DNA of 64,000 nt from Crossiella cryophila (GTDB taxonomy: Bacteria > Actinomycetota > Actinomycetes > Mycobacteriales > Pseudonocardiaceae): the NCBI RefSeq assembly GCF_014204915.1, contig NZ_JACHMH010000001.1, forward strand, positions 6,845,501-6,909,500, given 5' to 3'. Below are positions 38,486 to 60,416 of the stretch, in pieces (the first letter of the stretch is position 1; each line of letters starts with the position of its first letter). The translations under genes and the position numbers were made by a program. The notes below the pieces were generated by a model. It made no database searches, was not told where the DNA came from, and saw only the letters and a list, made by a program, of their open reading frames with translations.

Positions 38486-38577
38486 GGGAGGCCCCTCTGT
38501 GTCCGATCTGCGAACCGGGGGCCAATCGTAGTACCAGGATGGGCCGTTCAGCCTAATCGGCGCGGGTTGTCCACAGG

Positions 38578-39234
38578 CTAGGCGGTGACCGGGCCGCTGG
38601 GTCGCCAGATCCGGGCGAGCTGGCCGCTGACCAGGTCGGCGGCGTGCCGCACCGCGGGCACCATCGCGGGCAGCCGCCGCCGGTCCAGCACCGAGGCGGA
38701 CACCGCGCCGCACACCTCGCCCGTCCGGGTGCGCACCACCACGCTGATCCCCGCCACCTCCTGCGCACAGGTGGACTCCTGCACGTACAACACGCCGTCG
38801 CCGTCCCGCGCTGCCTTGAACAGCACCTGCCACGCGCCTTCGGCTGGGTACTTCAGCCCGGCGCGCAGCGGCAGCGCCTCATCGGTCTCCCCGCGCAACG
38901 CGCCCAGCACCAGGGTGTTCTCGCGGTCCGGCACGGCCACGCTGACCGCGGCTCCGGGCAGGGCGGCGGCCAACTGCCGCAACGGGTACAGCGCGGCCGC
39001 GCGCAGGTCCGCGCCGGAGCGCCAGCCGGTGCCGAAGCGGAACATCCGGGCACCCATCCGGTACCGGCCCTCGCCGCGTTCCACCGCGCCCAGCTGCACG
39101 AGCTGGTCCAGCAACCGGTGCACGGTGGCCTTGGGCAACCCGGTCCGGGCGGCCAGTTCGCTCAGCCCGCACTCCTCGGTGTCGATGATCTCCTCGAGCA
39201 GCAAGAACGCGCCTTCCAGCACTCCCCGGCCCAT
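38578..39234 (-). CDS. IclR family regulator
   Basis: A 218-aa protein from ATG 39234 (GGGAGG upstream). Winged helix GLSELAARTGLPKATVHRLL and effector domain (RENTLVLGALRGETDEALPL, TCAQEVAGISVVVRT) match IclR regulators. It is separated from the T7SS locus by 74 bp and read in the same direction, but belongs to the 38 kb regulator pair rather than the operon. Confidence 0.88.
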   Translation of the reverse strand: MGRGVLEGAFLLLEEIIDTEECGLSELAARTGLPKATVHRLLDQLVQLGAVERGEGRYRMGARMFRFGTGWRSGADLRAAALYPLRQLAAALPGAAVSVAVPDRENTLVLGALRGETDEALPLRAGLKYPAEGAWQVLFKAARDGDGVLYVQESTCAQEVAGISVVVRTRTGEVCGAVSASVLDRRRLPAMVPAVRHAADLVSGQLARIWRPSGPVTA

Positions 39235-39308: not shown

Positions 39309-39812
39309 CTAGCCGGCCGCGCGCACCACGGCCGCGCCGTGCAGCCGCAGCGAGGCGGGCGCGCCCGGGTTGATCAGCAGGTCCACCTGGTACTCGGTGA
39401 GCAGCAGGGCCAGTTCGGTCAGCGACACCGCCCGCCAGCCGGCCGCGCCGACCCTGGGCCGGTGCGCGGGCGCGGTGGTGATCAGCAGCGAGGGCACGTC
39501 GTCGGGGGCGGGGGCGACCACCGGTTCCTCGGACTGGTCCACGGCCAGGCCGAGTATCCCGGTGCGCAGTACGGCGAAGAACGCCTCCGCGTCCAGCAGG
39601 CCCTCGTCCAGGCGGCGCAGCGCGGCGTCCACCGGGTCGGTCGGCGAGTCCGGTCCGGCCGGCAGGTAGTCGGGGTTGGGGTGGAAGGCGCCGATCCGGC
39701 CGTCGGCCTCGACCAGCCAGCCGCCGGTGACCGCGGTGGCCGGGGGCTCTCCGCCGTCGGGGCCGCCTCGCCAGTCCGGGTCGACCAGGTAGACCCAGTG
39801 TTGTTCGGTCAC
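39309..39812 (-). CDS. T7SS-associated protein, SseB-like
   Basis: A 167-aa protein from GTG 39812 whose start overlaps the giant gene's stop (GTGA). The sequence (HWVYLVDPDW, TGGWLVEADGRIGAFHPNP, SLLITTAPAHRPRV, LLINPGAPASLRLHG) matches the SseB-like family annotated as type VII secretion-associated in actinobacteria. It ends the operon and is probably a chaperone or immunity partner of the giant protein. Confidence 0.8.
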   Translation of the reverse strand: MTEQHWVYLVDPDWRGGPDGGEPPATAVTGGWLVEADGRIGAFHPNPDYLPAGPDSPTDPVDAALRRLDEGLLDAEAFFAVLRTGILGLAVDQSEEPVVAPAPDDVPSLLITTAPAHRPRVGAAGWRAVSLTELALLLTEYQVDLLINPGAPASLRLHGAAVVRAAG

Positions 39813-42800
39813 GGTGCCACCTCCTGCTTGACCGGCTTGCCGCCGAGGACCTGCGCCTCCGCGGCCGCCACGCCCTGGCTGTCGATGAGCTGTTCGATCT
39901 TCTGCAGCAGGATCAGCATGTCGCCGCCGTCGGGCACCCGGCCGAGTATGCCCGCCCGGCGGATCAGGTCGGCCGCGATCGCGTACCGCTCCACCTGCTG
40001 GGTGACCTCGGCCGGGTCGAGGTAGGCGAAGGTCTGCACGGTCTGCTCGGTCAGCGTCTCCAGCGCGATGGGGTGGCCGCGCAGTGGATCGGTGAGGCCG
40101 TGCAGGTCGAACAGGTCCTTGGCGCGGGCGAGCTGACCTTCCGAGGTGCTCTCGGCGAGTCCGTTGTGGAAGGTCTCCCAGGTGCCGCCGTGCCGGACCA
40201 CGAACGAGCGACGGCCGGGGTCACCGGGAACTGTGGAGCGGCCGACGACGTTCTTGGTGGCGCCGTAGACCCGGCGCACCCCACCCTCGTGCAGGGTGCG
40301 GGAGAAGTCGTGCGCGACGCCGCCGGGGCCGGGCAGGCCGCCGGTGGAGCAGGCGAACAGGATCACCGACTGGTGCCGTTCGCCCAGGCCGACGCCGAGG
40401 TAGAGCCGGTGCCAGTCGTCGACCACCCTGGCCAGGGTCTCGCCGTCGACGAGCAGGCTCTCGTCCAGGTGCAGCAGGTGTTCGCCTGCGTGCCCGGAGA
40501 CCAGGAACGGTTCGGCGCGTTCACCCGACCAGGGGGCGGTCAGGTGGTCGACGGGGCCGAGTTTCTTCGGCAGGCCGCCGGGGCCTTCGTAGCCGGCGAG
40601 GGCGGGGCCGCGGGCCTGGCCGATGCGCTGGTCCTCGGCGAGCATGGCGGAGTCGGTGCGGGCCTTGCGGAAGCTGGCGCCGAGCACCTCGCCCTGCCGG
40701 TCCAGGATCGGGGTCACGTCCACAGTGGACAGATCGAACCGGCGCGGGATGCCCTCGGCGGTGTAGCCGAGGTAGGTGCCGGAGCCGGTTTTGAGGCCGG
40801 GTCCGGGGCGGAAGGTGTACCAGCGGCCACCGCCGAGGGTGACGACCAGTCCGGGCCGGTCCGGGTCGACGGATTTGGGTTCGCGCAGTAGTTCGACCTG
40901 GCGGCTGGCCGCGTGCACCGCGACCTTGTCGCCCAGGTGCTGGGCGAGTTCGTGCGCGCTGCCGGTCTCGCCCTTGACCAGGCCGCCGGAGTTGGTGAGC
41001 AGCACCAGGTCCAGCTCGCTGCCCTCGGTGTGGTGGCCGGACTGGCGGAGCACCTCGGCCAGGGTGGCCGGGTCCACCGACAGCGGGCCGAGGTCCTTGT
41101 GCTGCACGGTGAACCGGGTCGGGGTGCCGTCGATGTCGAGGAACAGCGGGCTGCGCCCGGCCCAGGGCAGCGGCTGGGACTTGACGTCCTGCTTGCGGAT
41201 GGCTCGGCGCAGGGCGTCGCTGTCCGGGTGCTTGTCCGGGTCGACCGGGTAGGTGTGCTCGGCGGTGCGGTGCCCGGCCCAGTCCACCGCGTGCTCGGCC
41301 TGCACGTGCGGGCGGAAGCTGAGCAGTTTGACCCGGTCGCCGTCCTTGGCGAGGCTGACCTCCAGGTCGGCCAGGCTGAACTCCTGTTCGGCCCCGGTGT
41401 GGTCCAGGCCGGTGAGCACGGTCGGCTGGGCGGCCTTGGAGGCGGCCGAGCCGCGTTCGATGAACTCCGGCGCTTCCTGTTCGCGCACGGACAGGCTGAG
41501 CACGGCTTGTCTACGTCGACTGGACAGGTCCTGGTCGCCGTAGGGCCGCAGGTTGGGCGGGGTGCCGCGGCCAGCGCTCGCGGCGGTGACGGTGACCTCG
41601 GCCGGGTTCGGTTGGGGCTGGCCGGTGAGGTCGGCGACGTGCCGGTCCAGCTGTCCGGTGAACTGCCGCTTGGTCTGCTCGGCCCTGGACTGGCCGGTGT
41701 CCTTGGCCCTGCCCGGCTGCCAGGCGTTGCCGTAGCCGGTCACGGTGACCTCTGGCCGGGGCAGCTGCTGGTTGTCCCGCCACACGCTCTGCCGGGCGAC
41801 CTTGCGGGCGAACTGGTTCAGGCTGTGCTGCTCACCGCCGTCGATGTCCTTGCCGTGCTTGGGGAAGGTGACGCCGTGCTGGTCCTTGCCGTGCCCGCCG
41901 AGCACCACGAAGGTGAGTGGGTTGACGATGGAGGACATCGGCTCGTCCGCGCGCAGCTTGGACTTCTGCTCGTGGAAGCTCTCCCCCGGCCGCTTGCTGA
42001 ATGCCTGGAAGTGCCACAGCGTGGGCGGGCTGGGCAGTTTCGAGGCGGCGATCAGCAGGTCCCTGGCCGTGTTGGCCTGGCGCCGCTGCTGCTCCGCCGG
42101 CGCGTTCGCGGCCCGCAGGTCGTGCAGCTCGCGCAGTTCCCGCACCAGGTGCTGTTCCAGGCCGGTGGTATTGGCCTCGGCTTCGTCGAACTTGCCGGAC
42201 AGGGCGGTCAGGTTGTGCTCGACCGCGGCCTGGGCGGCCCGGTTGGTGCCGCCGGTGCGGTTGAAGTTCTCGAAGGTCAGCTGGGTGCGGGTGTCCCCGC
42301 TCTCGGCGACCACCGCGCCGAAGTGGTAGCCGTAGGGCACCCGGTTGTTGTCCGGTCGGGCGTGGTTGGTGTCCAGCCCGCGTTCGCCCTCGGCGTCGAT
42401 CCCGGCGATGGAGTGCACGCTGTAGCCCTCGCCGATCCGCGCCCAGGCGTGCTGGTTGACGCCGATCTGCCCGGCGGCCTCGCCGAGTAGTTCGCGGCGG
42501 TCGTGATTGTCCACTGTGGTCCGTTGCGCACTGCCGTAACGCTGTCCCGGCGCGGGCGCGGTGCCCACGCCGACCACCGGCCGGTCGTCCCGGTGCACCG
42601 CGTCCCCTGCGGTGGCCGGGTCGAGCCGCACCGGGCCGCCGGTGCGTTCGGCGTGCTCGACCGCGTCGATGAGCGCCTCGGCCAGGTGGTGGGTGCCGGT
42701 GAGTTCGGTGCTGTTGCCGGAGTTGGTCCGCGCGGCGACGGTGGGGCCGTTGCCGCGCAGCACGATCCGGTCTGGCTGGCCGCCGAGCACGGCGGCGGTG

Positions 42801-45800
42801 GCGTCCCGGCAGACATCCGGCGGCGGCGTGCCGGTGAAGCTCGGCCGGACCTGCACCAGGGTGCGCGCCTTGCCCTGGTGGGACAGGGTGATGGTGATGT
42901 CCGGGTTCGGGGTCAGCCGGACGTTGCTGTCCGCCGCGCGCAACGCGTGCTGCGACTTGGTGATCATCTCCTGGGTGGCGAAGAACTCCTGCGGGAACAC
43001 GCCGGGGTCGTGCACCACGGCCAGGCTGCCGTCCTCGGCGATCCGCAGCGGCGGGTGCTCATCGGTGACCGCGGGCTGGTGCAGCAGCTGGAGGTGCAGG
43101 CCGGTGTCGCCTACCGAACGGTCGGTAGTGCCGGGCAATCCGAACCGGCGGAACGGGACCTCGCTGCCGGTGACGCTGATCGTGTAGTCGGTGGTGACCA
43201 GCGGGTCGGCCTTGGCCACCCTGGGGTCGACCGCGGGCGCGGTGTAGGCCGTCTCGGGGATGATCTTGCTGCTGGCCACCAGGTTGTGCTCGATCCGCCA
43301 GAGTTCCTTGGGCCGCAGCGAGTCCGCGCCGGACATCAGGCCCTGCTGTCCCGGCCCGGCGACCCGGTTGCGCACCTCGCCGACCGGCCGGCCGTCGGCG
43401 CCCAGGTGCTGGCTCCCGGCGGCCTTGTCCTGCAGGGCCAGGCCGGGGTGGTGGTAGCTGTCGTGCAGGCCGAACCCGGCGTGACCGAGTTCGTGCGCGA
43501 GGTCCTTGGGGTCGGCGTTGACGCTCCAGTCCTGGTGGGTCATCCGGTCCAGGTCCGGGTGCACCCGCACGTGCTGGTACGCCTGGGTCGGATCGGTGGT
43601 GAACTCGACCCGGACGTGGAACTGGTCGCCGCTGGGCAGCCGGTAGCCCCGGTTGTAGAACTGGTCCACGCCCGCGTGCACGTTGCGCCGCACGGTGTCC
43701 AGCTGCGCCGGAGTGACCCCCGGCTGGGCGTCCAGGTGCACCTTGAGGGTGAACTCGGTGACCCAGCGGCTCGGCGCGGCCTCGATCCGGCGCACATCGT
43801 GCCGGACCTCGACGATCTCGCCGGACAACCTACCTACCGGTCGGTCGGCGAGGTTTTGCTGGACCTTGACACCGGCCAGTTCAGTGCTCACCTGCGCGAA
43901 ACTGCCCTGTTCGGTGCCACGCAGGTGCGCCCACAGCTCCGGCCGCACCGGGTGGTCCGGTGTCATCCAGTCCGCGGTCTGGCCGGGGAAGTCCCGCCAG
44001 CTCTCGTCCCGGAGCACCTCGGTCTCCGGCCGGTTGCCGAACACCGAGGTGGGCACCACGGCGAACCGGACCCGGCCGGTGCTGTCGTCGATGATCATCC
44101 GCAGCACCAGGGCGGGCTGGGCGGGCTGGGCGTTGAACGGGTTGGCGGTGATGAACGGACCCTGCACCCGCGGGTGGTGGATGATGATCTGCCGTTGCTG
44201 GTCGGTGGCTGCCAGCCGGGCGGCCAGCATGATCGAGTTGGTCACCTCCTCGTTGCGCGCCGCGATCCGCCGGTCCCGCTGGGCATCGCCGGTGCTGGTG
44301 CGGGTCTCGTACTGGAACCGGCTGGTCTGGCCGAGCGCGACCACCAGGTTGCCGTTGCCGCGCACCGGGGCCCGGTGCAGCTGGTCCAGGATCGAACCGG
44401 GGATCATCGCCTGGGCGGAGGTCTCGGCCACCGCCAGCTCCCACGCCAGCCGCATCGCACCGGCCCGGATCGCCTCGCCGGAGGTGCCCGCGGCCCGGCC
44501 GACCTGGTCGAACAACCCGTCCCGGACCACCTGCGGCTGCTGGTTCAGCGGATCGCCGAGCTGGAGCTGCAGACCGAGCTGGTGGATCTGCTGGGTGAGC
44601 GTGGAGGCCGGGTCCGAGGTGGCCATCAGGTAGGCGGCCAGGACCTTGTGGTGCGGCTGCACCCCGGCGGCCTCGCCGTTGCCCATGGGCGCGGACACCC
44701 GGTGGCTGGGCTCGTTGCGCACCAGGTTGCCCAGGTGGCCCTGATCCGGCCGGGCGGTCGGCAGCCAGCTGTGCTTGGGCAGCGGCTGCTCGGGACGTTG
44801 CCGCTGCTGACCGGTGTTGAAGTATGAGGTGCCACCGGGCAGCCTGCGCGGGCCGAAGGGCTGGTCCTGGTCGAGCTTCTTCAGGAAGGAGTCGCGGTAC
44901 TTCGAGGCGGACACGCCCTTCTTGGCGTCCTTGTCCACGTAGAACTGGTCCACCACACTGCCCAGCGGCACGTGCGACTGCGGCAGGTTGCCGCGGGCCG
45001 GTTGGCGGCCGCCGCTGGTGAACTCGTCCTGGAAGCGCTGCAGGTTGGTGACGATCGCGGCGTCCTCGAAGTGCACCACGTAGGCCCGGCCGCGGTTGGG
45101 GTGCCGGTTGTTGCTCTGGTCGGTGTGCACGTCGATGCCGTTGGCGCGCAGGTGGTTCAGCTCGTCGGCGTAGGTCCGGCCGACCGTGTCGGCGAGCCTG
45201 CCGAACTCGGCCCCGCCGTCACCGAAGACCACCTGCCGGTGCTGGGTGAACAGCAGCGTGCCGTCCAGGTACAGGTTGGGCTCTGGCACGTACGGCAGCG
45301 TGGGCGCGATCCGGGCCTGCCGGTCCCTGGTGCGCATGTCCTCCAGGATGGCCGCCTCGGTGTTCTGCTCGAAGCCGGAGTTCGGCGCGGGCCGGTAACC
45401 GCCGCCCATCAACAGCGGGCGTTCCGCGGGCATGTCCCGGCTGCCGCGGGTCTGGCGGTCGAAGTAGTCGAAGACGTGCCTGCCACCGGGGGTGACCCGG
45501 CTGCCCCGGTCGAAGTCCTGCACCGAGACGTACGGGTGGGTGCCGAACTGCATCATCCCGTTCAGCGCGGCCCTGGTGGCGCCGGAGTTCAGCGTATCGT
45601 TGCGCACCGAGCCGTAGCGGAACCCGTCGTGCCTGCCACCGACCACCGCGATCGGCCACAGCGATGCCTGCAGCCACTGCCAGGTCTCCCGGTTGCCGTT
45701 CCAGTGCTGCTGCCACTCCGGTGAGTCGGTGGTCGCGTTGGCGTTGAACACGAACGCCACCCGGCGCGGATCACCCTGGTAGCCCTGCATGATCTCGTGC

Positions 45801-48800
45801 ACGGTGGCCGGGATCCGGTGCAGCTGGTTGAGCTGCAGCATGATGTTGACCACGAAGGAGACCGGCCGTTGCGCGGCGCTCTCCCGCAGGAAGTTCTGGT
45901 AGTCGGTGCGGTTGTACTCCGGCCCTCCGGTGCGGGCCAGACCGAGGAAGGCGGTGTTGGCGAAGGTGCCCGCCGGCGGCGTGTACGGGCCGACCTGGTG
46001 GTAGACGGTCGGCGGTTCCTGGCTGTGCGAGGAGGAGGCCCCGTTGTTGTTGCGGCTGGGATAGGGATTGGCGCGGCCCTTGCCCTTGCGGTCCTCCTTC
46101 TTGCCCGCGCCGGGTCCGCCGTGGGTGCGCCGGGTGCCGGAGTCCTTGGCCAGCTCGTGCGCCAGGGTGTCGGCGCGGTCCGGGCCGTGCTGGGCGTACT
46201 CGGCGGCGACCACGGTGACGACCTGGTCGACCACGTCCTTGAGGTGCTGCTGTTCCGGGGTTGGTTCGCCCATGGTCAGCGGCGCGTGATGGTAGCGGGT
46301 GGCGATGGTGGCCGCGGCTTCGAGCGCCTGCCCCCGGGAGTCGTCGTCCATTGTGGACAGTGTGGTGGCGGCGACTTCGGCGCGGTGGGCCAGGGTCTGC
46401 TGTTCGGCGATAGCGGTGTCCAGGCCGCCCTCGAAGTAGGTGTTGTTCCAGGCTTCGATGGTCTGGGAGTGGTTGTCCCGCAGGTGGTTCCAGTAGCGAC
46501 TGTTCTCGTCCAGCTTGGCCCGCAGGCGGTCCCGCTGGGTCTCCGGGTCGGCGAGGTCCCTGGTGACCTCGACCTTGAAGCCGCCGTCGGGAGTGAAGTC
46601 CTTGGCGTTGAGGCCGATCCCGCCGAAGAGCAGCTGCTCGTCGGGGTGCATGACCTGTTTGCCGACGGTCTCGCCGTCCGCGATGGCCTTGCGGTAGGCG
46701 GAGTCGATGGTGCTGACCTTGGCCAGGAGTTCGGTCGCGGGCAGGGTGACCGGGTTGCTGAGGTACTCGGTCAAGGAGGCTCTGCCGAGGTAGCTCTGGT
46801 AGAGGTGCGCGATGTCGCCGCGCTTCTCCACGAACCAGCTGTGCGCGTAGGTGTTGACCCGGATGGCGGCGTCGCCGGGGGTGTTCAGGGCGGCGGCCAG
46901 GGCGTCCAGGCCGCGCTGGGGCTGAACGGGGTTGGCGAAGTAGATGTCGCGGAGGTGGGCCGAGCTTTCACCGCAGACGCCCTGGAAGTTGGCCAGGGCC
47001 GTTTGGTAGGACTGGGCCTGGGTGAGGTCGGGTTCGGTGAAGCCGAGTTCCATCACGGCGGCGGCCGGGTGGTACATGCGCATTTCCAGCTCGGTGCCGG
47101 TGAGGTTCTGCTCGGTGGCGACCCGCTGGAACAGCGCGGGGAGGTCGCGCTCGGGGCGGTCCTGGTTTGCGGCCGTGGTGCCGAAGGCGCTGTTGTTGCG
47201 GGCGGCCTCCTGGGCCAGGTACTGCACGGCGTTCTGGTCGCCGAGGTTGGCCAGCACCACGATCGCGTCCCGGTTCCCGCCGTTGGCCAGTGCGAACAAC
47301 GCCTGCTGCGCGGTCTCGTTCCCGTTCTGCGCCAACGTGGTCAGCCCGGTCACATCCCCGCGCCGGGCCAGGTCCTGGGTGGCCTGCCCGTTGCCGTTGC
47401 CCGCCAGGTGCCGCAGTCCGTCCTGGGCGTGCGGCACGTTCCGGTCCGCGAGGGTGATCAGGGTGGCCACGTCGGCGTTGTCGACCACCTTGGCCAGCGC
47501 GGTGGTGTCGCCGTTGGCGGCGAACTCGCGCACCGCGTGGTAGGCCGGTCCGTCCGTGCCCGCGTACTCGACCAGCCCGGCCACGTCCCCGGCGGTCACC
47601 AGGGTCTGCACCGCGGCCTCATTGCCCTGGCCCGCCAACTGCTTCAGCGCGGTGTGCGCGTCCGCACTGCCCTTCTTCGCCACTTCCAGCAGTCCGGTGA
47701 TGTCCTGCTGGTCGCGCAACGCGGTGAGCGCGGCCGGGTTGTTGTTGCCCGCCAAGGTTCGCAGGCCGTTCTTGGCATCCGGGTTGCCGTCCAGGCTGAG
47801 CCGGGTCAGCAGCGGCACGTCCCCGGCCTCGGTCACCTTGGCCACCGCCTGCGCATTGCCCCGGGTGGCGAACTCCTTGACCGCGTCGTAGGCGGGCCCA
47901 GGCCCGGTGGCGGCCTCGACCAGCGCGGGCACATCCCCCGCCTCGCCCAGCACCTTGACCGCGTCGTTGTTGCCGTTGCGCGCCAGCAGTTTCAGCCCGG
48001 CGTAGGCATCGGCGTTGCCCGCCTTGGCCAACTGGCCCAGGCCGACCGCGTCACCGTTGTCCGCCAACGCGATCAGCGCCTGCTGATTGCCCTCCCCCGC
48101 CAGCTTGCGGACCTCATCGCGGGCCTCTTCGTTGCCGTGCTGGGCGAAGACGACCAGGGTCGGCAGGTTCCGGTCCTTGGCCAGGTTCTCCAGGAACAGC
48201 TTGGCCTGCCGGTGCGGCACCGGCTGGAAGGTCAGCTGCGCCAGCTCCTGCACCGCGGTGCGGCCACCCAGTTCCGGGTGCGGGTTGTTGTCCCCGGCCC
48301 GGACCAGCGCGTCCAGCGCGTGCGTCTCGCCCTGCGAGCCGAGCACGACCAGGGCGTGGTGCGCCTGCTGGTTGCCACCGACGGCGAGCTGGTCAAGCGT
48401 GCGCAGTGACTCCTGGTGACCTTGATCGGCCAGGGCGATCGTCGCGTCGAGATCACCGTTGGCGGCCCTGGCGTACAGCGAGGTTTCCGGTATGGGCACA
48501 CCCTGGCCGGGCGACACGTGCGGGTTGTCCTGGACGATTTTGGTGGTGGACTGGAGGTTCCGGCCGATCTGCCACAGTTCGCGGGGGCGCAACACGGTGT
48601 CCGGGCGGTGGGACAGGGACATCAGACCGCTGTCGGCGTCCCGGATGACCCGGTTGGACACCTCGCCGACCACCTTGCCGCCCCGGCCGTGGTGCTGGGA
48701 TCCGGCGGGCTTGTGCTGCAGGGCGAGGTTGGTGTCGTAGGCGTCGTAGAGCCCGAAGCCGTAGTGCCCCAGTTCATGCGCGATGTCCTGCGGCGGCAGG

Positions 48801-51800
48801 TTGGCGTCCCACTGGTTGTGCACCGACCGGTCGGTACTCGGCCAGACGTTCACCTGCTGGAAGGCGTCCTCGGCATGCTCGACGAACTCCAGCCGCACGT
48901 GGAACTGATCGCCGTCGGGCATCCGGTAGCCCTGGTTGTACATCCGGTCCACCCCGCGATGAGCGTTGCGCCGCACGAGGTCCAGGCGTTCCGGCGACAC
49001 CCCGGCCTGCGCGGTCAGGTGCACCTTGAGGGTGAACTCCTTGACCCAGCGACCCGGCTCGACCTCGATCCGGCGCACGTCGTGCCGCACCGGGACGATC
49101 TCGGAGTTGAGGGCGAACCGCGGGCGGCCGTTGGCGTCGACCACCGCGCTGGTGTTGGTCAGGATCGCGGTCAGCTCGGACTCGACGTGGCTGACGGGTG
49201 CGGTGGCGCGCAGGTGTTCCCACTGGTCGCGGTGCAGGGGGCGGGGGTCAGGGGACATCCAGTCGGCGGTGGGGCCCGGGTAGTGCCGCCAGGACTCGTC
49301 GTCGAGGACGGTGGTTTTCGGCTTGAGCGGCGGGTTGTCGGCGGACTGGGTGTCAGTCGGGGTCGCCTCGGTGGGATTCGCGTTGCCGGGCTGGTCGGGC
49401 CGCGGGGTCGTCGCGGGCTGCGGGGTCTGGTTGGCCGGGGCCTGCTGGGGCGCCGGGTGCTGCGCGTTGGCCGTGGTGTCCGGCTGGTTGCCGAACGCCG
49501 ATCCCCCGGCCTGCGGCTGGAACCGGACCCGGCCGTGCTGGTCCACCGTCATGTCCACCACCACATCGGCCTGGTTGACCGGCCGGTCCCGGAACGGCGT
49601 CGCGGTGAAGTACTCCTGCCCGTTGCTGGTGATCACCACCCGCCGGTTCAGCACACTCGCGGCCAGTCTGCCCGCCACCGCGACCGCGTTGGCCACCTCG
49701 GTGTTGCGCTGCCCGCCCAGCGGACTCGGGTCGAAGTGCAGTCCCGCGGTCTGCAACACGGTGGTCGCCAGGTCGGCGTCCTGGACCCGGTGGTTGGTCA
49801 GCTGTTCCTGGAGCGAACCGGGCACCAGGCGGTTGATCGAGTCCGGGTTGCCGCCCTCGGCGATGGCCACCGCGATCGCGTCCCGGCGGATGCCACCGGC
49901 CGAGCGGGTGCCGTCGGCCCTGGACACCGCGTCGAACAACGTGTTCGGCGCCACCCCCGGCGGCGTGGCCGGACCGGTCGGCCGGGCGTACATCCGGTTG
50001 CCGTCGAAGACCACCTGCTGCGGCGGTGTCCACAGCGACTGCTGCTGGTTGGGCTGCACCAGGTGCTGGAAGTTCTGGAACTTCACCACGATCCGCGAGG
50101 ACGGGTCCGACAGCGCGGTGTTCCACGCCGAGAGAACCTGTTCCCCCGCGGCGATCCCGGCGTGCCCGCCCGCACTCAGCGGTGCGGAGATGCGCGGGTT
50201 CATCAGGTTCGTGCCGGGCACGCCGAGCTGGTTGGCGCGCCCGGAGTCCGGCGGCGCCCAGCGCTGGTGGTTGGCCGGGACGGTGCCGTGCTCGGTGGTC
50301 CGCAACGGCTGCGGCCCAGGCCGCCAGTGACTCGAACCACCGGGCTGGACCCGTGGCGCGAGCGGCGAATCCGTGGCCGCGACACCCGGGTAGGCGTGCC
50401 GGTACGGGGACATCTCGATGCCGCCCTTGGCACTGCGGGTCTCGAAGAACTGGGTGGCCACGTTGGTCAGGCCGAGGTGGCTCTGCGGCAGGGTGCCGTA
50501 GGTGCCCTTGAACTTGGACTGGAACCGCTTGAGATCGGTGACGATCGACGCGTCCTCGAACTGGGTCAGGTACGCGCGGCCGCGGTCGGGGTGACTGCTG
50601 GTGGCGCCGAAGACCTGAACGTCCACACCGGACTGGTGGTAGTGGTTCAGCTCGGCGGCGAAGGCCAGGTTGAGCTGCTCGGCCAGGTGGCTGAACTCGC
50701 CGCCGCCCTGCCCGAAGGCGATGGTGGCGTGCTGGCTGAACAGCAGCGTGCCGTCGAAGTACAGGTTCGGTTCGGGCGAGTACGGCAGCAACGGGTGATC
50801 ACCGGCCTGCCGGTCCCTGGTCTGCATATCGGCCAGGATCGCCGCCTGGGTGTTGGCCCGCACCGTGCTGCCCTGCCCCGGCCGGTAACCACCGGCCATC
50901 AGCAACGGCCGATCCGCCGCCAGCCGCTCCTCCCCGTGTCCCCTCGCCCCGGTCATCTGGTCGAAGTGGTCGAAGATGTGCGTGCCCGCAGGCGTGGTCC
51001 GGCTGCCCTGGTCGAGATCCTGCACCGAGATGTAGGGGTGCGTGCCCTGGCTGAGCAGCCCGGCCAGCGCGCCCCTGGTGGCCCCGGAGTTCAGCGTGTC
51101 GTTGCGCATGGTGCCGTAGGGGAAGTTGTCCTTGGACTTGCGGAACCCGGTGGGCAGCGGGGTCTGGACCACCGCGACCGGCACCCCGGAAGCCTCGATG
51201 TGCTGGTACGGCAAGGAGTTCGCCAAGGAGTTGAGATCCTTGGCGTTGCCGTTGACCCCGAACACGAAGGCCACCCGCCGGTTGCCCGAGTACTGTTCGA
51301 GCACCTTGGCGATGGTCGCCGGGATCTCGCCGGCCTTCTTGGCCGGGAGGATCACGTTGACCACGAAGGAGATCTCGGACCTGTCCGCGCTCTGGGCGAG
51401 GAAGTTCGCATAGGACTGGGGAGTGAAGTTCGGTCCGCCGGATCGCGCCAGCTGGGCGAACCGGGTGTTCACCCAGGTGCCGGGCTGCTGCTGGAACGGC
51501 CCGAAGTGCACCTGCGGAATCCCGTGCACGGTAACCGGATTCCCGCCGGGGCCACCGCTTCTGCGACCGGTGCCGGACTCCTGCGCCAGATCCTTGGCGA
51601 GCGCGGCGGCACGTTGCGGACCGTGCTGGGCGTACTCGGCGGCTACCACGGTCACGACGTGGTCGATCAGGTCCCGGTTGTGTTGTTGCCGCTCGTTCGG
51701 TTCGCCGATGACGAGCGGGATCTGGTGGTGCTGACTGACCAGTTTCGCGGCTTCTTTGTTGGCTTGGCGCTGGGTCTTGGTGTCCAGATTGGACAGTGTG

Positions 51801-53776
51801 TCGGCGGCGGCGATGGCTCGGTAGGTGAGGATGCGTTCGCCGTGTTCGGCGCGGAGTTGTTTGGTGGTGAGGGCGGGGTCCTGGGTGGTGGCGATGGTGT
51901 GGGTGAGGTTGGCGTGGAGTTGTTGCCAGGTGGGGTTGTCGGAGAGGGCGGGGGTGATGTTGGCCTGGGTGAGGAGGGTGGTGGCGGTGGTGAGTTGGGT
52001 GGTGGTTGGGGCGGGGGTTTCGGTGGGGGTGGTGGGTTTGATGCTGGGGGTGGGGGCTTGGGGGGCGGGGGTTGGCTTTGGGGTGGTGTCGATTGTGGAC
52101 GGTTGAGAGGAGTTGGGGGTGGGGGTGGAGGGCGATGGGGTTGCGGTGTTGGCGGGCACGCTGGTGTTGGACGGCGTTGCGTTGCTGGTCGACGGGGTGT
52201 TGGTGGTCGTCGACGGGGTTGCGGTGTTGGTGGCTGGGGTTGGGCTGGGGCTCGACGGTGTCGGGGTGGTGCTGGCGGGTGTGTTGGGGTTCGGCGTTGA
52301 GGTGTTGGGGGTGTTGGTGGCCGGGGAGGTGACCTCGATGTGGGAGGTGATGTCCCGGGTTGGGCCGGTGTTCGGCGAGGCGGGGGCGTCGGTGCTGGTG
52401 TTGCCCGTGCCGTGAGCCGTGGTGCCCGGAGTGTTGGAGTCAGCAGGAGTGCCCGGACCGCCGGGGGTGCCGGGGGTGCCCGAACCGCCCGAAGTGCCAG
52501 GGGCGCCGGGCGTTCCCGGGCCGCCGGGGATGCCCGGCGTGCCGGAATTGCCAGGCACGCCGGAGTTGTGGGTTGTGCCGTTGGTGTTGGGCGAGGTCGT
52601 GGTGTTGTCCCTGGTCTGCCCGAAGTTGCCGGAGCTGTTGTTCGAGCCGCCGAACCCGCTCAGCGGCGTGTTGGTCCCGGACCCACCGCTGCCCTCGGAG
52701 CCGTTCGTGCCCGAGCCGCCATTGTTCTGGTTCGAGCCACCCGAGCCCGGTCCGCCATTGCCCCCTGCACCGGATCCGCCACTCGTCCCGCCGGTGTTCC
52801 CCGGCCCATCCCCACCAAGCCCACCCGGCACATCCACCGGCCCCACCGACCCCGGCCCGGCCAACGCAGCCGGCGGCGCGATCGCATCCGGCGTCTTCGG
52901 CGCGCCCTGCAACTGCGGCCCGTTCCGCCAGTTCTCGAACTTCCCATGCAGGTTCTGCCCCAGGTTGTGCGCCCCGTGACTAGCCGCACCCGTGAAGAAC
53001 CCACTGGCCGCCCCCAGCCCAACCCCACTGAGCCCACCACCCAACGGCATCGTGCCCAGCCCGACCAAACCCTCCGTGACCGCCTCGGTGATCCCCGCCC
53101 CCACCCAGGTCTTCGCCACGTTCGGCGCCCACTTGTGCATCCCCAGATGCACCCCGTGACCGACCAGCCCCGCCGCCCCACCGATGGCCGCGCCCAGGCC
53201 GACGCTCTTCCAGTCGATGTTGTCGACGTGGCCTTGGCCCTTCTGGATGGCGCTGGCCAGGAAGGCGGTGAAGGCTTCTTCGGCGGCTTCGGAAGTAATG
53301 GCGAGCACGGCCTGGGTGGCGGCCTTGCCTAGGAAGCGTTCCAGGGTTTCGCGGACCGCGATGCGGCCCAGGGTCAGGATTTCCGGGACCAGCGGCGCGG
53401 TGAAGGGGTCGGCGATGGCCCAGAGGATCTCGGCTGCGGTGAAGGCGGTTTGGATGATGAGGGAGTACTGGGCGTTTTCCAGGTTGACCGCGTACTGGCG
53501 CAGCGACTCGCCCTGGTTGGCGACCATGGTGCCGAGGTCGCCTTCGAAGCCGCTGAGTTTCTGGCCCCAGCGGACGAAGGCCCGGCCTGCGGGGCCGGTC
53601 AGGTTGGTGTTGACGTTGCGGACCAGGTCCGGCAGTCCGCCGCCGGCCGCGGCGATCTGGCTGGACAGGTTCTGCCACTGATCAGCCTCGGCGAAGAGCG
53701 CCTCGGGATCGCCCTTGGGCCAGAAGTCGCCGCCCAGCAAGGGGAAGATCCACAGGATGCCCTCCGGTGGCTGCAT
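39809..53776 (-). CDS. giant multidomain T7SS substrate (4655 aa)
   Basis: ATG 53776 with AAGGAGG upstream. Approximate domains by residue: 18-120 WXG100_2/CpnT-like N-domain (WPKGDPEALF, RWGQKLSGF); 120-290 Gly/Ala hydrophobic; 300-400 Gly-rich; ~405-445 collagen-like; ~450-600 Pro/Thr; then two copies of a block: DxD-type glycosyltransferase-like (QDLDQGS ~920; QDFDRGS ~2755), middle domain, metalloprotease-like HELGHYGFGLYD (~1665) and HELGHAGFGLHD (~3426). Between the copies are ~10 helical 39-residue repeats (~1776-2190) and a Cys/His papain-like segment (GVCGESSAHL ~2266, NTYAHSWFV ~2311). After them come a second (VCRDATAAV ~3655, YHFGAVVAES ~3819), OmpA-like VTVTGYGNAW (~4005-4090), and C-terminal caspase-like SGHAG/FACSTG (~4427/4475). 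Function inferred: exported polyvalent toxin or effector. No frameshift is needed over 14 kb. Confidence 0.85.
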   Translation of the reverse strand: MQPPEGILWIFPLLGGDFWPKGDPEALFAEADQWQNLSSQIAAAGGGLPDLVRNVNTNLTGPAGRAFVRWGQKLSGFEGDLGTMVANQGESLRQYAVNLENAQYSLIIQTAFTAAEILWAIADPFTAPLVPEILTLGRIAVRETLERFLGKAATQAVLAITSEAAEEAFTAFLASAIQKGQGHVDNIDWKSVGLGAAIGGAAGLVGHGVHLGMHKWAPNVAKTWVGAGITEAVTEGLVGLGTMPLGGGLSGVGLGAASGFFTGAASHGAHNLGQNLHGKFENWRNGPQLQGAPKTPDAIAPPAALAGPGSVGPVDVPGGLGGDGPGNTGGTSGGSGAGGNGGPGSGGSNQNNGGSGTNGSEGSGGSGTNTPLSGFGGSNNSSGNFGQTRDNTTTSPNTNGTTHNSGVPGNSGTPGIPGGPGTPGAPGTSGGSGTPGTPGGPGTPADSNTPGTTAHGTGNTSTDAPASPNTGPTRDITSHIEVTSPATNTPNTSTPNPNTPASTTPTPSSPSPTPATNTATPSTTTNTPSTSNATPSNTSVPANTATPSPSTPTPNSSQPSTIDTTPKPTPAPQAPTPSIKPTTPTETPAPTTTQLTTATTLLTQANITPALSDNPTWQQLHANLTHTIATTQDPALTTKQLRAEHGERILTYRAIAAADTLSNLDTKTQRQANKEAAKLVSQHHQIPLVIGEPNERQQHNRDLIDHVVTVVAAEYAQHGPQRAAALAKDLAQESGTGRRSGGPGGNPVTVHGIPQVHFGPFQQQPGTWVNTRFAQLARSGGPNFTPQSYANFLAQSADRSEISFVVNVILPAKKAGEIPATIAKVLEQYSGNRRVAFVFGVNGNAKDLNSLANSLPYQHIEASGVPVAVVQTPLPTGFRKSKDNFPYGTMRNDTLNSGATRGALAGLLSQGTHPYISVQDLDQGSRTTPAGTHIFDHFDQMTGARGHGEERLAADRPLLMAGGYRPGQGSTVRANTQAAILADMQTRDRQAGDHPLLPYSPEPNLYFDGTLLFSQHATIAFGQGGGEFSHLAEQLNLAFAAELNHYHQSGVDVQVFGATSSHPDRGRAYLTQFEDASIVTDLKRFQSKFKGTYGTLPQSHLGLTNVATQFFETRSAKGGIEMSPYRHAYPGVAATDSPLAPRVQPGGSSHWRPGPQPLRTTEHGTVPANHQRWAPPDSGRANQLGVPGTNLMNPRISAPLSAGGHAGIAAGEQVLSAWNTALSDPSSRIVVKFQNFQHLVQPNQQQSLWTPPQQVVFDGNRMYARPTGPATPPGVAPNTLFDAVSRADGTRSAGGIRRDAIAVAIAEGGNPDSINRLVPGSLQEQLTNHRVQDADLATTVLQTAGLHFDPSPLGGQRNTEVANAVAVAGRLAASVLNRRVVITSNGQEYFTATPFRDRPVNQADVVVDMTVDQHGRVRFQPQAGGSAFGNQPDTTANAQHPAPQQAPANQTPQPATTPRPDQPGNANPTEATPTDTQSADNPPLKPKTTVLDDESWRHYPGPTADWMSPDPRPLHRDQWEHLRATAPVSHVESELTAILTNTSAVVDANGRPRFALNSEIVPVRHDVRRIEVEPGRWVKEFTLKVHLTAQAGVSPERLDLVRRNAHRGVDRMYNQGYRMPDGDQFHVRLEFVEHAEDAFQQVNVWPSTDRSVHNQWDANLPPQDIAHELGHYGFGLYDAYDTNLALQHKPAGSQHHGRGGKVVGEVSNRVIRDADSGLMSLSHRPDTVLRPRELWQIGRNLQSTTKIVQDNPHVSPGQGVPIPETSLYARAANGDLDATIALADQGHQESLRTLDQLAVGGNQQAHHALVVLGSQGETHALDALVRAGDNNPHPELGGRTAVQELAQLTFQPVPHRQAKLFLENLAKDRNLPTLVVFAQHGNEEARDEVRKLAGEGNQQALIALADNGDAVGLGQLAKAGNADAYAGLKLLARNGNNDAVKVLGEAGDVPALVEAATGPGPAYDAVKEFATRGNAQAVAKVTEAGDVPLLTRLSLDGNPDAKNGLRTLAGNNNPAALTALRDQQDITGLLEVAKKGSADAHTALKQLAGQGNEAAVQTLVTAGDVAGLVEYAGTDGPAYHAVREFAANGDTTALAKVVDNADVATLITLADRNVPHAQDGLRHLAGNGNGQATQDLARRGDVTGLTTLAQNGNETAQQALFALANGGNRDAIVVLANLGDQNAVQYLAQEAARNNSAFGTTAANQDRPERDLPALFQRVATEQNLTGTELEMRMYHPAAAVMELGFTEPDLTQAQSYQTALANFQGVCGESSAHLRDIYFANPVQPQRGLDALAAALNTPGDAAIRVNTYAHSWFVEKRGDIAHLYQSYLGRASLTEYLSNPVTLPATELLAKVSTIDSAYRKAIADGETVGKQVMHPDEQLLFGGIGLNAKDFTPDGGFKVEVTRDLADPETQRDRLRAKLDENSRYWNHLRDNHSQTIEAWNNTYFEGGLDTAIAEQQTLAHRAEVAATTLSTMDDDSRGQALEAAATIATRYHHAPLTMGEPTPEQQHLKDVVDQVVTVVAAEYAQHGPDRADTLAHELAKDSGTRRTHGGPGAGKKEDRKGKGRANPYPSRNNNGASSSHSQEPPTVYHQVGPYTPPAGTFANTAFLGLARTGGPEYNRTDYQNFLRESAAQRPVSFVVNIMLQLNQLHRIPATVHEIMQGYQGDPRRVAFVFNANATTDSPEWQQHWNGNRETWQWLQASLWPIAVVGGRHDGFRYGSVRNDTLNSGATRAALNGMMQFGTHPYVSVQDFDRGSRVTPGGRHVFDYFDRQTRGSRDMPAERPLLMGGGYRPAPNSGFEQNTEAAILEDMRTRDRQARIAPTLPYVPEPNLYLDGTLLFTQHRQVVFGDGGAEFGRLADTVGRTYADELNHLRANGIDVHTDQSNNRHPNRGRAYVVHFEDAAIVTNLQRFQDEFTSGGRQPARGNLPQSHVPLGSVVDQFYVDKDAKKGVSASKYRDSFLKKLDQDQPFGPRRLPGGTSYFNTGQQRQRPEQPLPKHSWLPTARPDQGHLGNLVRNEPSHRVSAPMGNGEAAGVQPHHKVLAAYLMATSDPASTLTQQIHQLGLQLQLGDPLNQQPQVVRDGLFDQVGRAAGTSGEAIRAGAMRLAWELAVAETSAQAMIPGSILDQLHRAPVRGNGNLVVALGQTSRFQYETRTSTGDAQRDRRIAARNEEVTNSIMLAARLAATDQQRQIIIHHPRVQGPFITANPFNAQPAQPALVLRMIIDDSTGRVRFAVVPTSVFGNRPETEVLRDESWRDFPGQTADWMTPDHPVRPELWAHLRGTEQGSFAQVSTELAGVKVQQNLADRPVGRLSGEIVEVRHDVRRIEAAPSRWVTEFTLKVHLDAQPGVTPAQLDTVRRNVHAGVDQFYNRGYRLPSGDQFHVRVEFTTDPTQAYQHVRVHPDLDRMTHQDWSVNADPKDLAHELGHAGFGLHDSYHHPGLALQDKAAGSQHLGADGRPVGEVRNRVAGPGQQGLMSGADSLRPKELWRIEHNLVASSKIIPETAYTAPAVDPRVAKADPLVTTDYTISVTGSEVPFRRFGLPGTTDRSVGDTGLHLQLLHQPAVTDEHPPLRIAEDGSLAVVHDPGVFPQEFFATQEMITKSQHALRAADSNVRLTPNPDITITLSHQGKARTLVQVRPSFTGTPPPDVCRDATAAVLGGQPDRIVLRGNGPTVAARTNSGNSTELTGTHHLAEALIDAVEHAERTGGPVRLDPATAGDAVHRDDRPVVGVGTAPAPGQRYGSAQRTTVDNHDRRELLGEAAGQIGVNQHAWARIGEGYSVHSIAGIDAEGERGLDTNHARPDNNRVPYGYHFGAVVAESGDTRTQLTFENFNRTGGTNRAAQAAVEHNLTALSGKFDEAEANTTGLEQHLVRELRELHDLRAANAPAEQQRRQANTARDLLIAASKLPSPPTLWHFQAFSKRPGESFHEQKSKLRADEPMSSIVNPLTFVVLGGHGKDQHGVTFPKHGKDIDGGEQHSLNQFARKVARQSVWRDNQQLPRPEVTVTGYGNAWQPGRAKDTGQSRAEQTKRQFTGQLDRHVADLTGQPQPNPAEVTVTAASAGRGTPPNLRPYGDQDLSSRRRQAVLSLSVREQEAPEFIERGSAASKAAQPTVLTGLDHTGAEQEFSLADLEVSLAKDGDRVKLLSFRPHVQAEHAVDWAGHRTAEHTYPVDPDKHPDSDALRRAIRKQDVKSQPLPWAGRSPLFLDIDGTPTRFTVQHKDLGPLSVDPATLAEVLRQSGHHTEGSELDLVLLTNSGGLVKGETGSAHELAQHLGDKVAVHAASRQVELLREPKSVDPDRPGLVVTLGGGRWYTFRPGPGLKTGSGTYLGYTAEGIPRRFDLSTVDVTPILDRQGEVLGASFRKARTDSAMLAEDQRIGQARGPALAGYEGPGGLPKKLGPVDHLTAPWSGERAEPFLVSGHAGEHLLHLDESLLVDGETLARVVDDWHRLYLGVGLGERHQSVILFACSTGGLPGPGGVAHDFSRTLHEGGVRRVYGATKNVVGRSTVPGDPGRRSFVVRHGGTWETFHNGLAESTSEGQLARAKDLFDLHGLTDPLRGHPIALETLTEQTVQTFAYLDPAEVTQQVERYAIAADLIRRAGILGRVPDGGDMLILLQKIEQLIDSQGVAAAEAQVLGGKPVKQEVAP

Positions 53777-53835: not shown

Positions 53836-54231
53836 TCAGCGACGTGTTGACAGGTTGTCGACGATGTTGTTGACAGGCCCGCCGCCGGTGATGTTGGCCA
53901 GCGCGTTGCCGAGGCCACGCCCCGAATCCGTGGCGTAACGCTCCGCGAGGTCGTAGTTCTCGGCCATGCCACCGGCCACGTCGCCGGTCACCCGGATCGC
54001 GGTACCCCAGCCGCCGACCACGTCCCGTACCCCGCCACCCGATCTGGTGAACCCGGCCAGGAAGGTCTTGGCGTTGTCGTTGTCGCCGACCAGCGGGGCC
54101 AGCCGGTTGCCGTCGACCAGGACCGCGAGTTGCTGGTGCAGTCGCATCAGGTGGTCGGCCTTGGTGTGGAAACCGCGGGCGGCCACCCGCAGCCCGTCCG
54201 GCACCACCTCGAAGTGCTCTTCGCCTGCCAT
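53836..54231 (-). CDS. WXG100/EspC-like protein of the T7SS operon
   Basis: A 131-aa protein from ATG 54231 (AGGAGGAG upstream). It is helical with a GGWGTAIRV turn between two helices, in the manner of WXG100/EspC export proteins (FEVVPDGLRVAARGFHTKA, MAENYDLAERYATDSGRG). It is 59 bp before the giant gene and likely forms its export partner. Confidence 0.75.
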   Translation of the reverse strand: MAGEEHFEVVPDGLRVAARGFHTKADHLMRLHQQLAVLVDGNRLAPLVGDNDNAKTFLAGFTRSGGGVRDVVGGWGTAIRVTGDVAGGMAENYDLAERYATDSGRGLGNALANITGGGPVNNIVDNLSTRR

Positions 54232-54257: not shown

Positions 54258-54638
54258 TCAGGCCACGTCGGGTGCCTCGGGCAGCAGCGCGCCCAGGTCC
54301 AGTTCGCCGCGCAGCAACTTCTCCCCGGTCAGTCCGGCGGGCAGTAGCGCGCCGAGCTTCTGACCGGCGGTGCGGGCCGCCTTGGTCCGGGCCGCGTTCG
54401 CGGTCTTGAGGATCACCGCGGCCAGTTCGGCCGGGGTGAGCTTGTTGTAGGCGGCGGTGGGGAACTTGATGTCCTTCAGCTCGCCGTGCGGGCCGACGGT
54501 CACCGTCACCACATCACGCGGAGCCTTGGCCACCCCGGACACCGCGGCCAGATCACCGCGCAGGGCCAGTAGTTCGGCCCGCCTGCTCTGGTACGCGCTG
54601 AGGGCCTCGGCCCGCAGGTCGTCGTAGTTGGCGTTCAT
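54258..54638 (-). CDS. YbaB/EbfC-like DNA-binding protein
   Basis: A 126-aa protein from ATG 54638 (GGGAG upstream). The core (APRDVVTVTVGPHGELKDIKF then YNKLTPAELAAVILKTANAA) is the YbaB fold: one strand-turn-strand then a long helix. Within a T7SS operon its role is unclear; similar to the tandem version at 25593. It lies 11 bp after the EccA-like gene. Confidence 0.8.
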   Translation of the reverse strand: MNANYDDLRAEALSAYQSRRAELLALRGDLAAVSGVAKAPRDVVTVTVGPHGELKDIKFPTAAYNKLTPAELAAVILKTANAARTKAARTAGQKLGALLPAGLTGEKLLRGELDLGALLPEAPDVA

Positions 54639-54649
54639 CGTGCTCCCTC

Positions 54650-57600: not shown

Positions 57601-57772
57601 GGACGGTGCCGGGGCCCTCGGCGGCGATGATGGTGACCATCTGGCGCACCACCAGGTTCTCCGCGTACTGGCCCGGCTGGACGCTGATGGTGGCGCCGCG
57701 CGGGGCCTGGGCCAGTGCGGCCCCGATGCTCGGGTAGCCGCCCGCGCCGACGGTCAGGACTTCTCGGCTCAT
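54650..57772 (-). CDS. EccA-like AAA protein fused to a beta-helix domain
   Basis: A 1040-aa protein from ATG 57772 (AAGGGG upstream). Residues ~1-480 are a right-handed parallel beta-helix: repeating strands such as LRGLTLGSGETELATVDIV, GLDGCEITGGSWTT and LILRRSTVLRPRGNGL. Then comes a CbxX/EccA-type AAA domain with Walker A FAGPPGTGKTTVARMYG and Walker B GGVLFIDEAYTL, followed by a second, degenerate AAA (VITGRRGSGRTEFARLY, GGVLVLDLDGDW). EccA is the cytosolic ATPase that releases T7SS substrates from chaperones; the beta-helix is not part of mycobacterial EccA and may bind substrate or a surface. It overlaps nearly with its neighbours. Confidence 0.85.
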   Translation of the reverse strand: MSREVLTVGAGGYPSIGAALAQAPRGATISVQPGQYAENLVVRQMVTIIAAEGPGTVRVQAATGSVLVVDAEAVQLRGLTLGSGETELATVDIVRGQAGLDGCEITGGSWTTLLARETGSLAMRDCVVRNSIGVGVVIASPQTSTIEHTQVVEPASSGIVVAEHGSLILRRSTVLRPRGNGLCANGSAELTAEQCEITGAGKPAVVLEGQSTASLTGLTVTGSDSIDLYLLTTGTVSIVDSSFTGARGQSAHISGGTAQLLRDCTFTGAGNAAIQITGQAAPRLTDCVLTGVPVAVLVDGESTPKFERPVLTEVGQGFVVSGNSKLLLAGGTVDTGDAAALEVRESSRAVLSDLEIHSASIAALSFVESSAGELRSVQLRGGGVLAGDGVTLTVRDSEILNAPGDALTARPGASLTVSHCRIRSPRGHGVAMDVGARGELTDCQVTESGAEPFQIGSPEHVRRGEAGRAVVRETVPEHTPEPVEAEGAELSEPMRELAGLVGLDGVKQEVTGLVNLIRMSQQRKKLGLPMPPMSRHLVFAGPPGTGKTTVARMYGTVLAELGVLSKGHMVEVARADLVGQYIGSTAIKTTEVITKALGGVLFIDEAYTLTAQSGGSGPDFGQEAVDALMKMMEDHRDELVVIVAGYSAHMDRFLDSNPGLASRFTRTIEFPNYSVDELVTITTGLCAKHYYELTEDGLAAVREYYERVPKNETFGNGRVARKLFEAMVNNQASRFATAPPSKDTELNRLTAADLRAELDLLPAAARAVNASTVDDPAAAVAATLGWRRFEALAGQDQTRATARLTLERLAKARRAGADDAADLVITGRRGSGRTEFARLYAQSLTELGLIRTGVLHRVHVAAELWPQWPGQAEALARDAVAQARGGVLVLDLDGDWLAESADPVFEAVEAVLTETARRAGDQVLVLLGEPERIGALSGLLNLPARFGHAWPLGPYTVEELAQVAVAALARRGHEVPEDVREALAGELAKSGVDSVRGAHQLALALARTAATRTLVAADLRALAPVGAEELPLGQGLAAVG

Positions 57773-57783
57773 CTCAGTCCCCT

Positions 57784-60138: not shown

Positions 60139-60413
60139 GACTGGCCCCCTTCGGATGCGTGGTGGTCGACCTGGAGTGAGTACTCCGCGGCCTGTGGCCT
60201 GGTGGCGGGCTTGGGTGCGGTCAGGTGCACGATCAGCCCGTAGAGGAAGAAGCCGAGCCCGATCAGGAAGGTGATCCCGATGCCGACCAGGAAACCGGTC
60301 CAGGCGCGGCGGGCGGGGACCTCCAGCAGGCTGGGGTCGCCGAGCACCAGGGAGGCGCTCATCCGGCCCATCATGAACTGGTATGCCTCGACGTGGTCCT
60401 TCTGCGTCTGCAT
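60126..60413 (-). CDS. truncated EccB-like membrane stub (95 aa)
   Basis: A 95-aa protein from ATG 60413. It begins QTQKDHVEAYQFMMGRMSAS with LVLGDPSLLEVPARR, the typical EccB N-terminus, and has one membrane helix (GFLVGIGITFLIGLGFFLYG). EccB is normally ~450-500 aa with a large extracytoplasmic domain, which is absent here. It overlaps the next gene by 13 bp and lies 3 bp from the eccD stop. A stand-alone membrane anchor is likely; a splitting event with the 784-aa gene cannot be shown. Confidence 0.75.
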   Translation of the reverse strand: MQTQKDHVEAYQFMMGRMSASLVLGDPSLLEVPARRAWTGFLVGIGITFLIGLGFFLYGLIVHLTAPKPATRPQAAEYSLQVDHHASEGGQSWLS

Positions 60414-60416
60414 GGT

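Follow-up and report, generated by a model that had tools for sequence, protein, structure and literature searches.

Giant proteins with several enzymatic domains are known from actinobacteria. In the sections of the literature cited here, those described in 2012 carry two anthrax-lethal-factor-type metallopeptidases, two caspases, three ARTs and MCF1-SHE, and the longest one has 13,652 aa (PMC3482391). The same paper lists PF04488 as a GT toxin domain, found with T7SS (WXG) and PVC routes (Zhang 2012, PMC3482391). It also contains caspase-like repeat arrays from actinobacterial toxins, some of them without catalytic residues, which are proposed as processing units (PMC3482391). Toxins led by DUF4157 (eCIS_core) have been described by Geller et al. 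2021 (PMC8213781), and the gigantic Omnitrophota proteins are another class (PMC12419801). In open-access titles and abstract openings we have found no description of the glycosyltransferase-like (GT-like) or metzincin-like modules which are presented below. Names also need some care. We take 'lonely Cys domain' to be a name for such proteins, which we have not found in the open-access literature, while 'polyvalent protein' is the name of a different class, that of phages and mobile elements.

The locus analyzed here belongs to Crossiella, whose genome (our G000) has 10.06 Mb in one contig, C1. The window, the whole stretch of DNA that was analyzed, has 64,000 nucleotides, positions 6845501-6909500 of this contig. 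Its giant gene, P0001, codes for 4655 aa. Judging from its modules and its neighbours, P0001 is probably a giant multi-module polymorphic toxin and a substrate of the type VII (ESX) locus next to it. It is similar to the SACTE_5178-type giants (13,652 aa; PMC3482391) in having several putative peptidase or protein-modifying domains per chain, partly inactive caspase repeats and a T7SS (WXG) route. SACTE_5178 is set apart from P0001 by its description: In the sections cited, these giants contain anthrax-lethal-factor-type metallopeptidases, ARTs, MCF1-SHE and OTU, whereas P0001 has an M7-like motif and a GT-like module in a duplicated block (PMC3482391). The original prediction considered P0001 unusual even among polymorphic toxins. 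This claim is not supported, because comparable multi-enzyme giants of up to 13,652 aa have been in print since 2012 (PMC3482391). The class of P0001, partly inactive caspase repeats included, is already known; two of its module families are poorly covered by Pfam.

Two Streptomyces loci may also be compared. The S. atratus locus of an 'EndoU domain-containing protein' (NZ_CP109382.1) contains eccC (on the other strand), eccD, WXG100, a T7SS-associated gene, YbaB, a small gene and a 14.4-kb giant. Its YbaB gene is related to the one found here (E 9e-10), the small genes have no similarity, and the N-termini of the giants are weakly alike (E 1e-4). Unlike the P0001 locus, it has a full EccB, and its product is named EndoU. 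The second case is a 'glycosyltransferase' CDS of Streptomyces sp. NBC_01717 (NZ_CP109179.1), which also has metzincin-like copies and is over six times longer than the P0001 gene. This annotated CDS is found in a plasmid, at 175202-265261 (our locus L052), and has 90,060 bases, about 30,019 codons. Four metzincin-like copies are present in the 40 kb examined, three of them alike across the motif stretch.

The original prediction gave the exact coordinates of the giant gene and left its strand unsaid: It is the minus strand. The genes of the locus follow each other in this order:

61814-63964, minus strand: EccC, frame continuing beyond the window (TIGR03925, T7SS_EccC_b, 733.5 bits)
60420-61814, minus strand: EccD (TIGR03920, 157.6 bits)
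57784-61014, minus strand: gene with a XopAI-like C-terminal stretch, start uncertain inside the frame (NF041404, 21.4 bits, cut-off 300)
54650-58510, minus strand: beta-helix and AAA ATPase gene, start uncertain inside the frame (Beta_helix 88.9 bits, AAA 73.7 bits)
54258-54653, minus strand: YbaB/EbfC-family gene (39.5 bits, cut-off 25.5)
53836-54231, minus strand: small gene preceding the giant, resembling WXG by eye only (no family match)
39809-53776, minus strand: giant gene P0001, 4655 aa (one open frame, ATG start at the 53776 end)
39309-39812, minus strand: NF033532, 'type VII secretion system-associated protein' (146.3 bits, cut-off 85)

Two ESX core genes, EccC and EccD, are found beside the giant, as in the known toxin class, though EccB lacks a full match. 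Full-length EccB is absent from the locus, where positions 4-63 alone match in a 96-aa frame (60228-60407, minus strand). Full EccB matches are found at five other loci of this genome; here EccB may be missing or supplied by another locus. Two WXG100 genes are located about 6 kb outside the window. Family models agree with the predicted placement of the giant behind eccC/eccD and a YbaB-like gene, but not with a WXG-like nature of the small gene: It has no Pfam or NCBIfam match at E<=0.1, so the label is unproven, and we have rejected WXG100 as its identity. The beta-helix/AAA gene is matched by the SpoVK and EccA models below their cut-offs. The gene which precedes it shows a weak resemblance to the XopAI effector family, far under the cut-off of 300. 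Downstream of the giant operon there is an AfsR/SARP-type regulator frame (35507-38833, minus strand; 504.9 bits, model cut-off 1430).

The NF033532 gene comes after P0001, with a 4-bp overlap. Genes of this type are found immediately after three other giants, one in the same genome (5430446) and two in relatives (G001:C7 142548 and G019:C7 11003). We have detected NF033532 within 4 kb of 5 of 15 giant or related frame ends (L061, L084, L058, whose end is an estimate, L076 and, weaker, L053). It was not found near the other ten, among them L080, which had just 1.2 kb available. NF033532 is present in 40 of 60 relatives and the first block of P0001 in 9 of 60, so this partner is not specific to such giants. 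No immunity gene was recognised next to P0001, and the adjoining NF033532 is not named as an immunity family.

P0001 is a single uninterrupted 14-kb frame, as the original prediction had it: Its 4655 codons contain no internal stop, only the terminal one, while the other two minus frames carry 72 and 22 stops. The G+C by codon position (0.694/0.495/0.923) gives the coding statistics of a real gene, and AAGGAGG is found shortly upstream of the ATG. The protein may be divided as follows, from the N-terminus to the C-terminus:

53396-53731, minus strand: WXG100_2 N-terminal domain, residues 16-127 (Pfam PF25547, 39.9 bits, cut-off 27)
51962-52879, minus strand: low-complexity linker, about residues 300-605 (composition)
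50447-51484, minus strand: GT-like module copy 1, residues 765-1110, DxD D920/D922 (motif and profile)
49337-50449, minus strand: linker module LK copy 1, residues 1110-1480 (nearly private to P0001)
48566-49303, minus strand: metzincin-like module copy 1, residues 1492-1737 (profile, motif)
48743-48778, minus strand: HELGHYGFGLYD motif of metzincin-like copy 1, residues 1667-1678
47177-48481, minus strand: repeat region, residues 1766-2200 (judged by eye; the frames searched contain no relatives)
46487-47179, minus strand: orphan Cys/His segment, residues 2200-2430, C2268 in GVCGES, possible papain-like (motif)
44942-45973, minus strand: GT-like module copy 2, residues 2602-2945, DxD D2754/D2756 (motif and profile)
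43940-44944, minus strand: linker module LK copy 2, residues 2945-3279 (local profile)
43292-44008, minus strand: metzincin-like module copy 2, residues 3257-3495 (profile, motif)
43460-43495, minus strand: HELGHAGFGLHD motif of metzincin-like copy 2, residues 3428-3439
42659-43066, minus strand: module C1, residues 3571-3706 (common to other giants)
41903-42625, minus strand: module C2, residues 3718-3958 (common to other giants)
41579-41878, minus strand: module C3, residues 3967-4066, OmpA-like, weak (profile)
40838-41224, minus strand: caspase-like repeat copy 1, residues 4185-4313, without the His/Cys pair (alignment)
40193-40549, minus strand: caspase-like repeat copy 2, residues 4410-4528, H4429 and C4476 (alignment)

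P0001 begins with a WXG-type trafficking domain (PF25547), as do the T7SS (WXG) polymorphic toxins; 'CpnT-like' is the label which the original prediction gave to this N-terminus. In the linker that follows, G+P+S+T+N+Q amount to 81-83% per 100 residues (residues 301-600). A duplicated block occupies residues 617-1756 and 2429-3514, and its two copies have 40% identity over 1193 columns. The LK modules are found elsewhere as weak matches in 2 of 66 GT-like loci. Beyond the N-terminus, none of the modules reaches any family cut-off in Pfam or NCBIfam, and single-sequence searches against PHROGs, PADLOC and PDB gave merely weak, low-complexity or chance matches. Such a lack of curated families, the N-terminus aside, is what we should also expect if the motifs were chance resemblances in an unrelated giant, for example a megasynthase or an adhesin. 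We give very little credit to this explanation: It is the motif columns that are conserved when many divergent copies are compared, and no megasynthase family of Pfam or NCBIfam matches P0001. The three kinds of modules with catalytic motifs, metzincin-like, GT-like and caspase-like, all show this conservation at the sequence level.

The two predicted HELGHxGFGLxD metzincin-like sites are present, one per block copy, and both combine HExxHxxGxxD/H with a Met-turn. The residues of HExxHxxGxxD (H, E, H, G, D) are kept in 87 of the 92 metzincin-like copies covering the motif, and by a permissive test 85 of 86 motif matches have a Met-turn-like [LIVPM]M in the 80 residues that follow. Compared with M7 proteins of related genomes, profile against profile, the module reaches a probability of 95.7% over 40 columns (0.2% for the GT profile, used as a control). 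Snapalysin is the best PDB match of the profile (E 0.0019, 23 positions). Copy 1 of P0001 has no Pfam family at E<=1. Matches to families are all weak among the 26 members of our alignment A1, which contains 26 of 34 copies: Peptidase_M6 in 10 (best E 0.005) and M7 in 4 (best E 0.0093). As the M7 family model is not matched by the P0001 copy, we regard the module as something that would work like M7, and we do not file it as M7. The likeness to snapalysin (peptidase family M7) consists of HExxHxxGxxD and the Met-turn; unlike the P0001 module, snapalysin is a small stand-alone protein, and the two can be aligned over 23-40 columns only.

The DxD-type GT-like segments are also two in number, as predicted, and both are inside the duplicated block. 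Both Asp of the DxD are invariant in the 51 aligned rows, and so is an Arg-Asn pair. By this DxD motif the module is a candidate GT-A glycosyltransferase. These rows (alignment A8) come from 91 chained matches, reduced to 58 non-redundant ones and then to 49, to which both copies of P0001 were added. Neither Pfam nor PDB gives a substantial match: A GT family is matched by one of six members (Glyco_tranf_2_3, E 0.1), at the level of the chance matches to other families. We have rejected PF04488 as its identity, since no member matches, although other giants carry this domain. In 41 genomes there are three PF04488 matches, all inside giant frames (L164, L165, L166), one of them in the Crossiella genome.

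A scan of genome contigs with the GT-like profile gave 108 pattern matches, 86 of them confirmed, and the best 80 of these 86 correspond to at least 66 loci. The metzincin-like module is also found in 42 of the 66. Among the matches listed, many loci are in Lentzea, Streptomyces, Actinoplanes, Saccharothrix and Micromonospora, and two in Mycolicibacterium; those outside actinobacteria are in Trinickia, a Methylibium MAG, Minicystis and an Oscillatoria MAG. Three of the four frames scanned are fusions with a delivery domain: eCIS_core leads the frames of Trinickia (L113) and of the Oscillatoria MAG (L132), WXG100_2 that of Mycolicibacterium (L148). The fourth frame (L125, Minicystis) has neither, only a sub-threshold OTU match. 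It is a Minicystis rosea frame of 3077 aa, in a genome which holds 16 eCIS_core matches. Such matches are present in 5 of 7 genomes with the GT-like module. In the Methylibium MAG (G335, L120), eCIS_core is found at C9:48310-48507; should L120 be on this same contig, the distance to its GT-like match may be about 1 kb.

That two delivery systems use the GT-like module argues most strongly for its being effector cargo. The eCIS effectors (eCIS_core/DUF4157; PMC8213781) are like P0001 in that the GT-like module is the cargo behind eCIS_core in L113 and L132. In the sections of the literature cited, they belong to another delivery system, and the metallopeptidase which they carry is eCIS_core itself, at the N-terminus, in place of the metzincin-like module of P0001 (PMC8213781).

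The caspase-like C-terminus of the original prediction is recognizable by the H4429/C4476 pair, co-conserved in relatives. Both residues are found in 22 of 100 aligned copies of this repeat and neither in 72; 2 copies have only the His and 4 only the Cys, the His position being a gap in all four. Their co-occurrence is the strongest of 5,917 residue-column pairs (Fisher 5e-16, calculated on related rows). In a reduced set of 41 copies with less than 40% identity, 9 have both, 2 His only, 1 Cys only and 29 neither. Of the 30 Cys in the 100 copies, 26 fall in the Cys column of this pair. On the basis of this His/Cys co-conservation, the repeat may belong to clan CD (caspase-like / C80). A His...Cys arrangement is, we assume, a trait common to Peptidase C80 and the caspase-like repeat. 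The likeness to C80 consists of weak matches of P0001 relatives, all under the cut-off (1 of 31 members; 2 of 10 members, one of the two outside the repeat), whereas P0001 itself does not match the model. The best PDB match of the profile is an alpha/beta hydrolase (E 0.013); an RTX toxin protease has E 0.99. The counts appear to fit the 2012 proposal of partly inactive processing repeats.

The 72 copies with neither His nor Cys, as in one of the two copies of P0001, are also what we might expect from a decayed or largely structural giant, with its repeats kept as a filament or stalk and its catalytic sites mostly idle. The linker and the repeat region, more than 700 residues of P0001, would agree with such a structure. 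We consider it quite improbable: Nearly all copies counted retain the metzincin-like or DxD site, P0001 has an intact pair of each, and a frame of 4655 codons has no internal stop.

The prediction of two papain-like segments, on the other hand, was not borne out. P0001 has three cysteines in all (C2268, C3656, C4476). As C4476 is caspase-like and C3656 is outside the columns conserved at 80% in six C1 copies, at most one papain-like candidate is left, the orphan C2268. Its Cys/His segment is found in one of 298 genomes of the order, that of Crossiella itself, and has no match in viral contigs. The predicted OmpA-like segment does show a similarity, but a weak one: PF00691 is matched by 2 of the 31 members of a mixed-module alignment, in which 7 rows are C3 (best E 9.1e-4), and comparison with PDB gives YfiB (E 0.018).

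The distribution of these modules is patchy. The first block is found in 9 of 60 genomes and the C-terminal quarter in 6 of 100, counting the Crossiella genome in both cases. With local profiles, and P0001 counted, the metzincin-like module has 34 copies in 21 frames, the GT-like module is found in 5 frames, C1 and C2 in 5, and C3 in 10; the copies in these counts are not independent, being related. P0001 was the only frame with LK, the repeat region, the Cys/His segment or the final 96 residues. GT-like, metzincin-like and caspase-like modules were aligned apart; joint MAFFT alignments of GT with metzincin, or of metzincin with caspase, misplaced rows. The succession metzincin-GT was counted 60 times vs 30 times for GT-metzincin, with any distance allowed and array members counted repeatedly. 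In Winogradskya consettensis (L087), four metzincin-GT pairs form a tandem array which repeats itself every 910-940 residues or so. Modules recur in differing sets and orders in giants of several actinobacterial genera, a pattern of cargo exchange.

The Crossiella genome has two further giant frames, of 10,792 aa (near 5.40-5.43 Mb) and 5,848 aa (near 8.80-8.82 Mb), about 13 and 7 kb from EccB (5383701-5385038 and 8828389-8829735, respectively). A frame of 16,768 aa was reported for genome G057, where 2432 aa passed the codon filter within the stretch examined. Plasmids contain little of this material: A search with residues 606-3560 gave 7 of 72,556 records, all from Streptomyces, each with a coverage of 9% at most. 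C2 gave five pattern matches in viral contigs, none confirmed, and was not found in four non-actinobacterial genomes with GT-like loci. The idea of C2 as an eCIS-associated domain has no support from these four genomes.

P0001 might also be a T7SS-exported giant which remodels the surface or envelope of its producer (adhesion, matrix glycosylation, morphogenesis), perhaps anchored by the OmpA-like segment, and not a toxin. That segment, an AAA/beta-helix partner which is not toxin-specific, an NF033532 gene common in relatives without such giants, and the lack of a recognised immunity gene beside P0001 all agree with this role. We still think it unlikely. In unrelated phyla, proteins led by eCIS_core have the GT-like module as their cargo, and relatives carry PF04488 GTs, a toxin domain in the list of 2012 (PMC3482391). 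One relative is annotated as EndoU, and the patchy distribution also argues against an envelope function. A T7SS-linked toxin with several catalytic-type modules, as the original prediction proposed, agrees better with the WXG100_2 domain, the ESX operon, the conservation of the motifs and the presence of the GT-like module behind eCIS_core.

If P0001 is such a toxin, its WXG100_2 N-terminus and the YbaB-family, NF033532 and beta-helix/AAA partners would pass the chain to EccC, and the low-complexity linker would separate the export portion from the cargo. The cargo would be two GT-like and two metzincin-type zinc-peptidase units, which would modify and cut proteins of the target cell. The OmpA-like segment may bind peptidoglycan. 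After delivery, the caspase-like unit with H4429/C4476 could cut the chain, following the 2012 proposal, or serve as the last toxin. The stack of modules may be explained by duplication and by shuffling of the same modules among giants. A more speculative version, unlikely in our opinion, is a self-dividing chain with multiple warheads: The intact caspase-like unit would free the GT and metzincin effectors, metzincin-GT would be a two-enzyme cartridge of uncatalogued toxin families, and its GT half would be exchanged, also across phyla, between giants of the T7SS and effectors of the eCIS.

In summary, P0001 is a complete example, with module boundaries, of the giant toxin-like cargo which was noticed in actinobacteria for the first time in 2012. 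It offers candidate active-site residues (D920/D922, D2754/D2756, E1668, E3429, H4429 and C4476) and a translationally coupled partner, NF033532. The export by ESX of a chain of more than 4600 residues, and its processing by partly inactive caspase-like arrays, may be tested in this locus. The GT-like module, which is covered by no Pfam family and common to two delivery systems, is a candidate new effector family.
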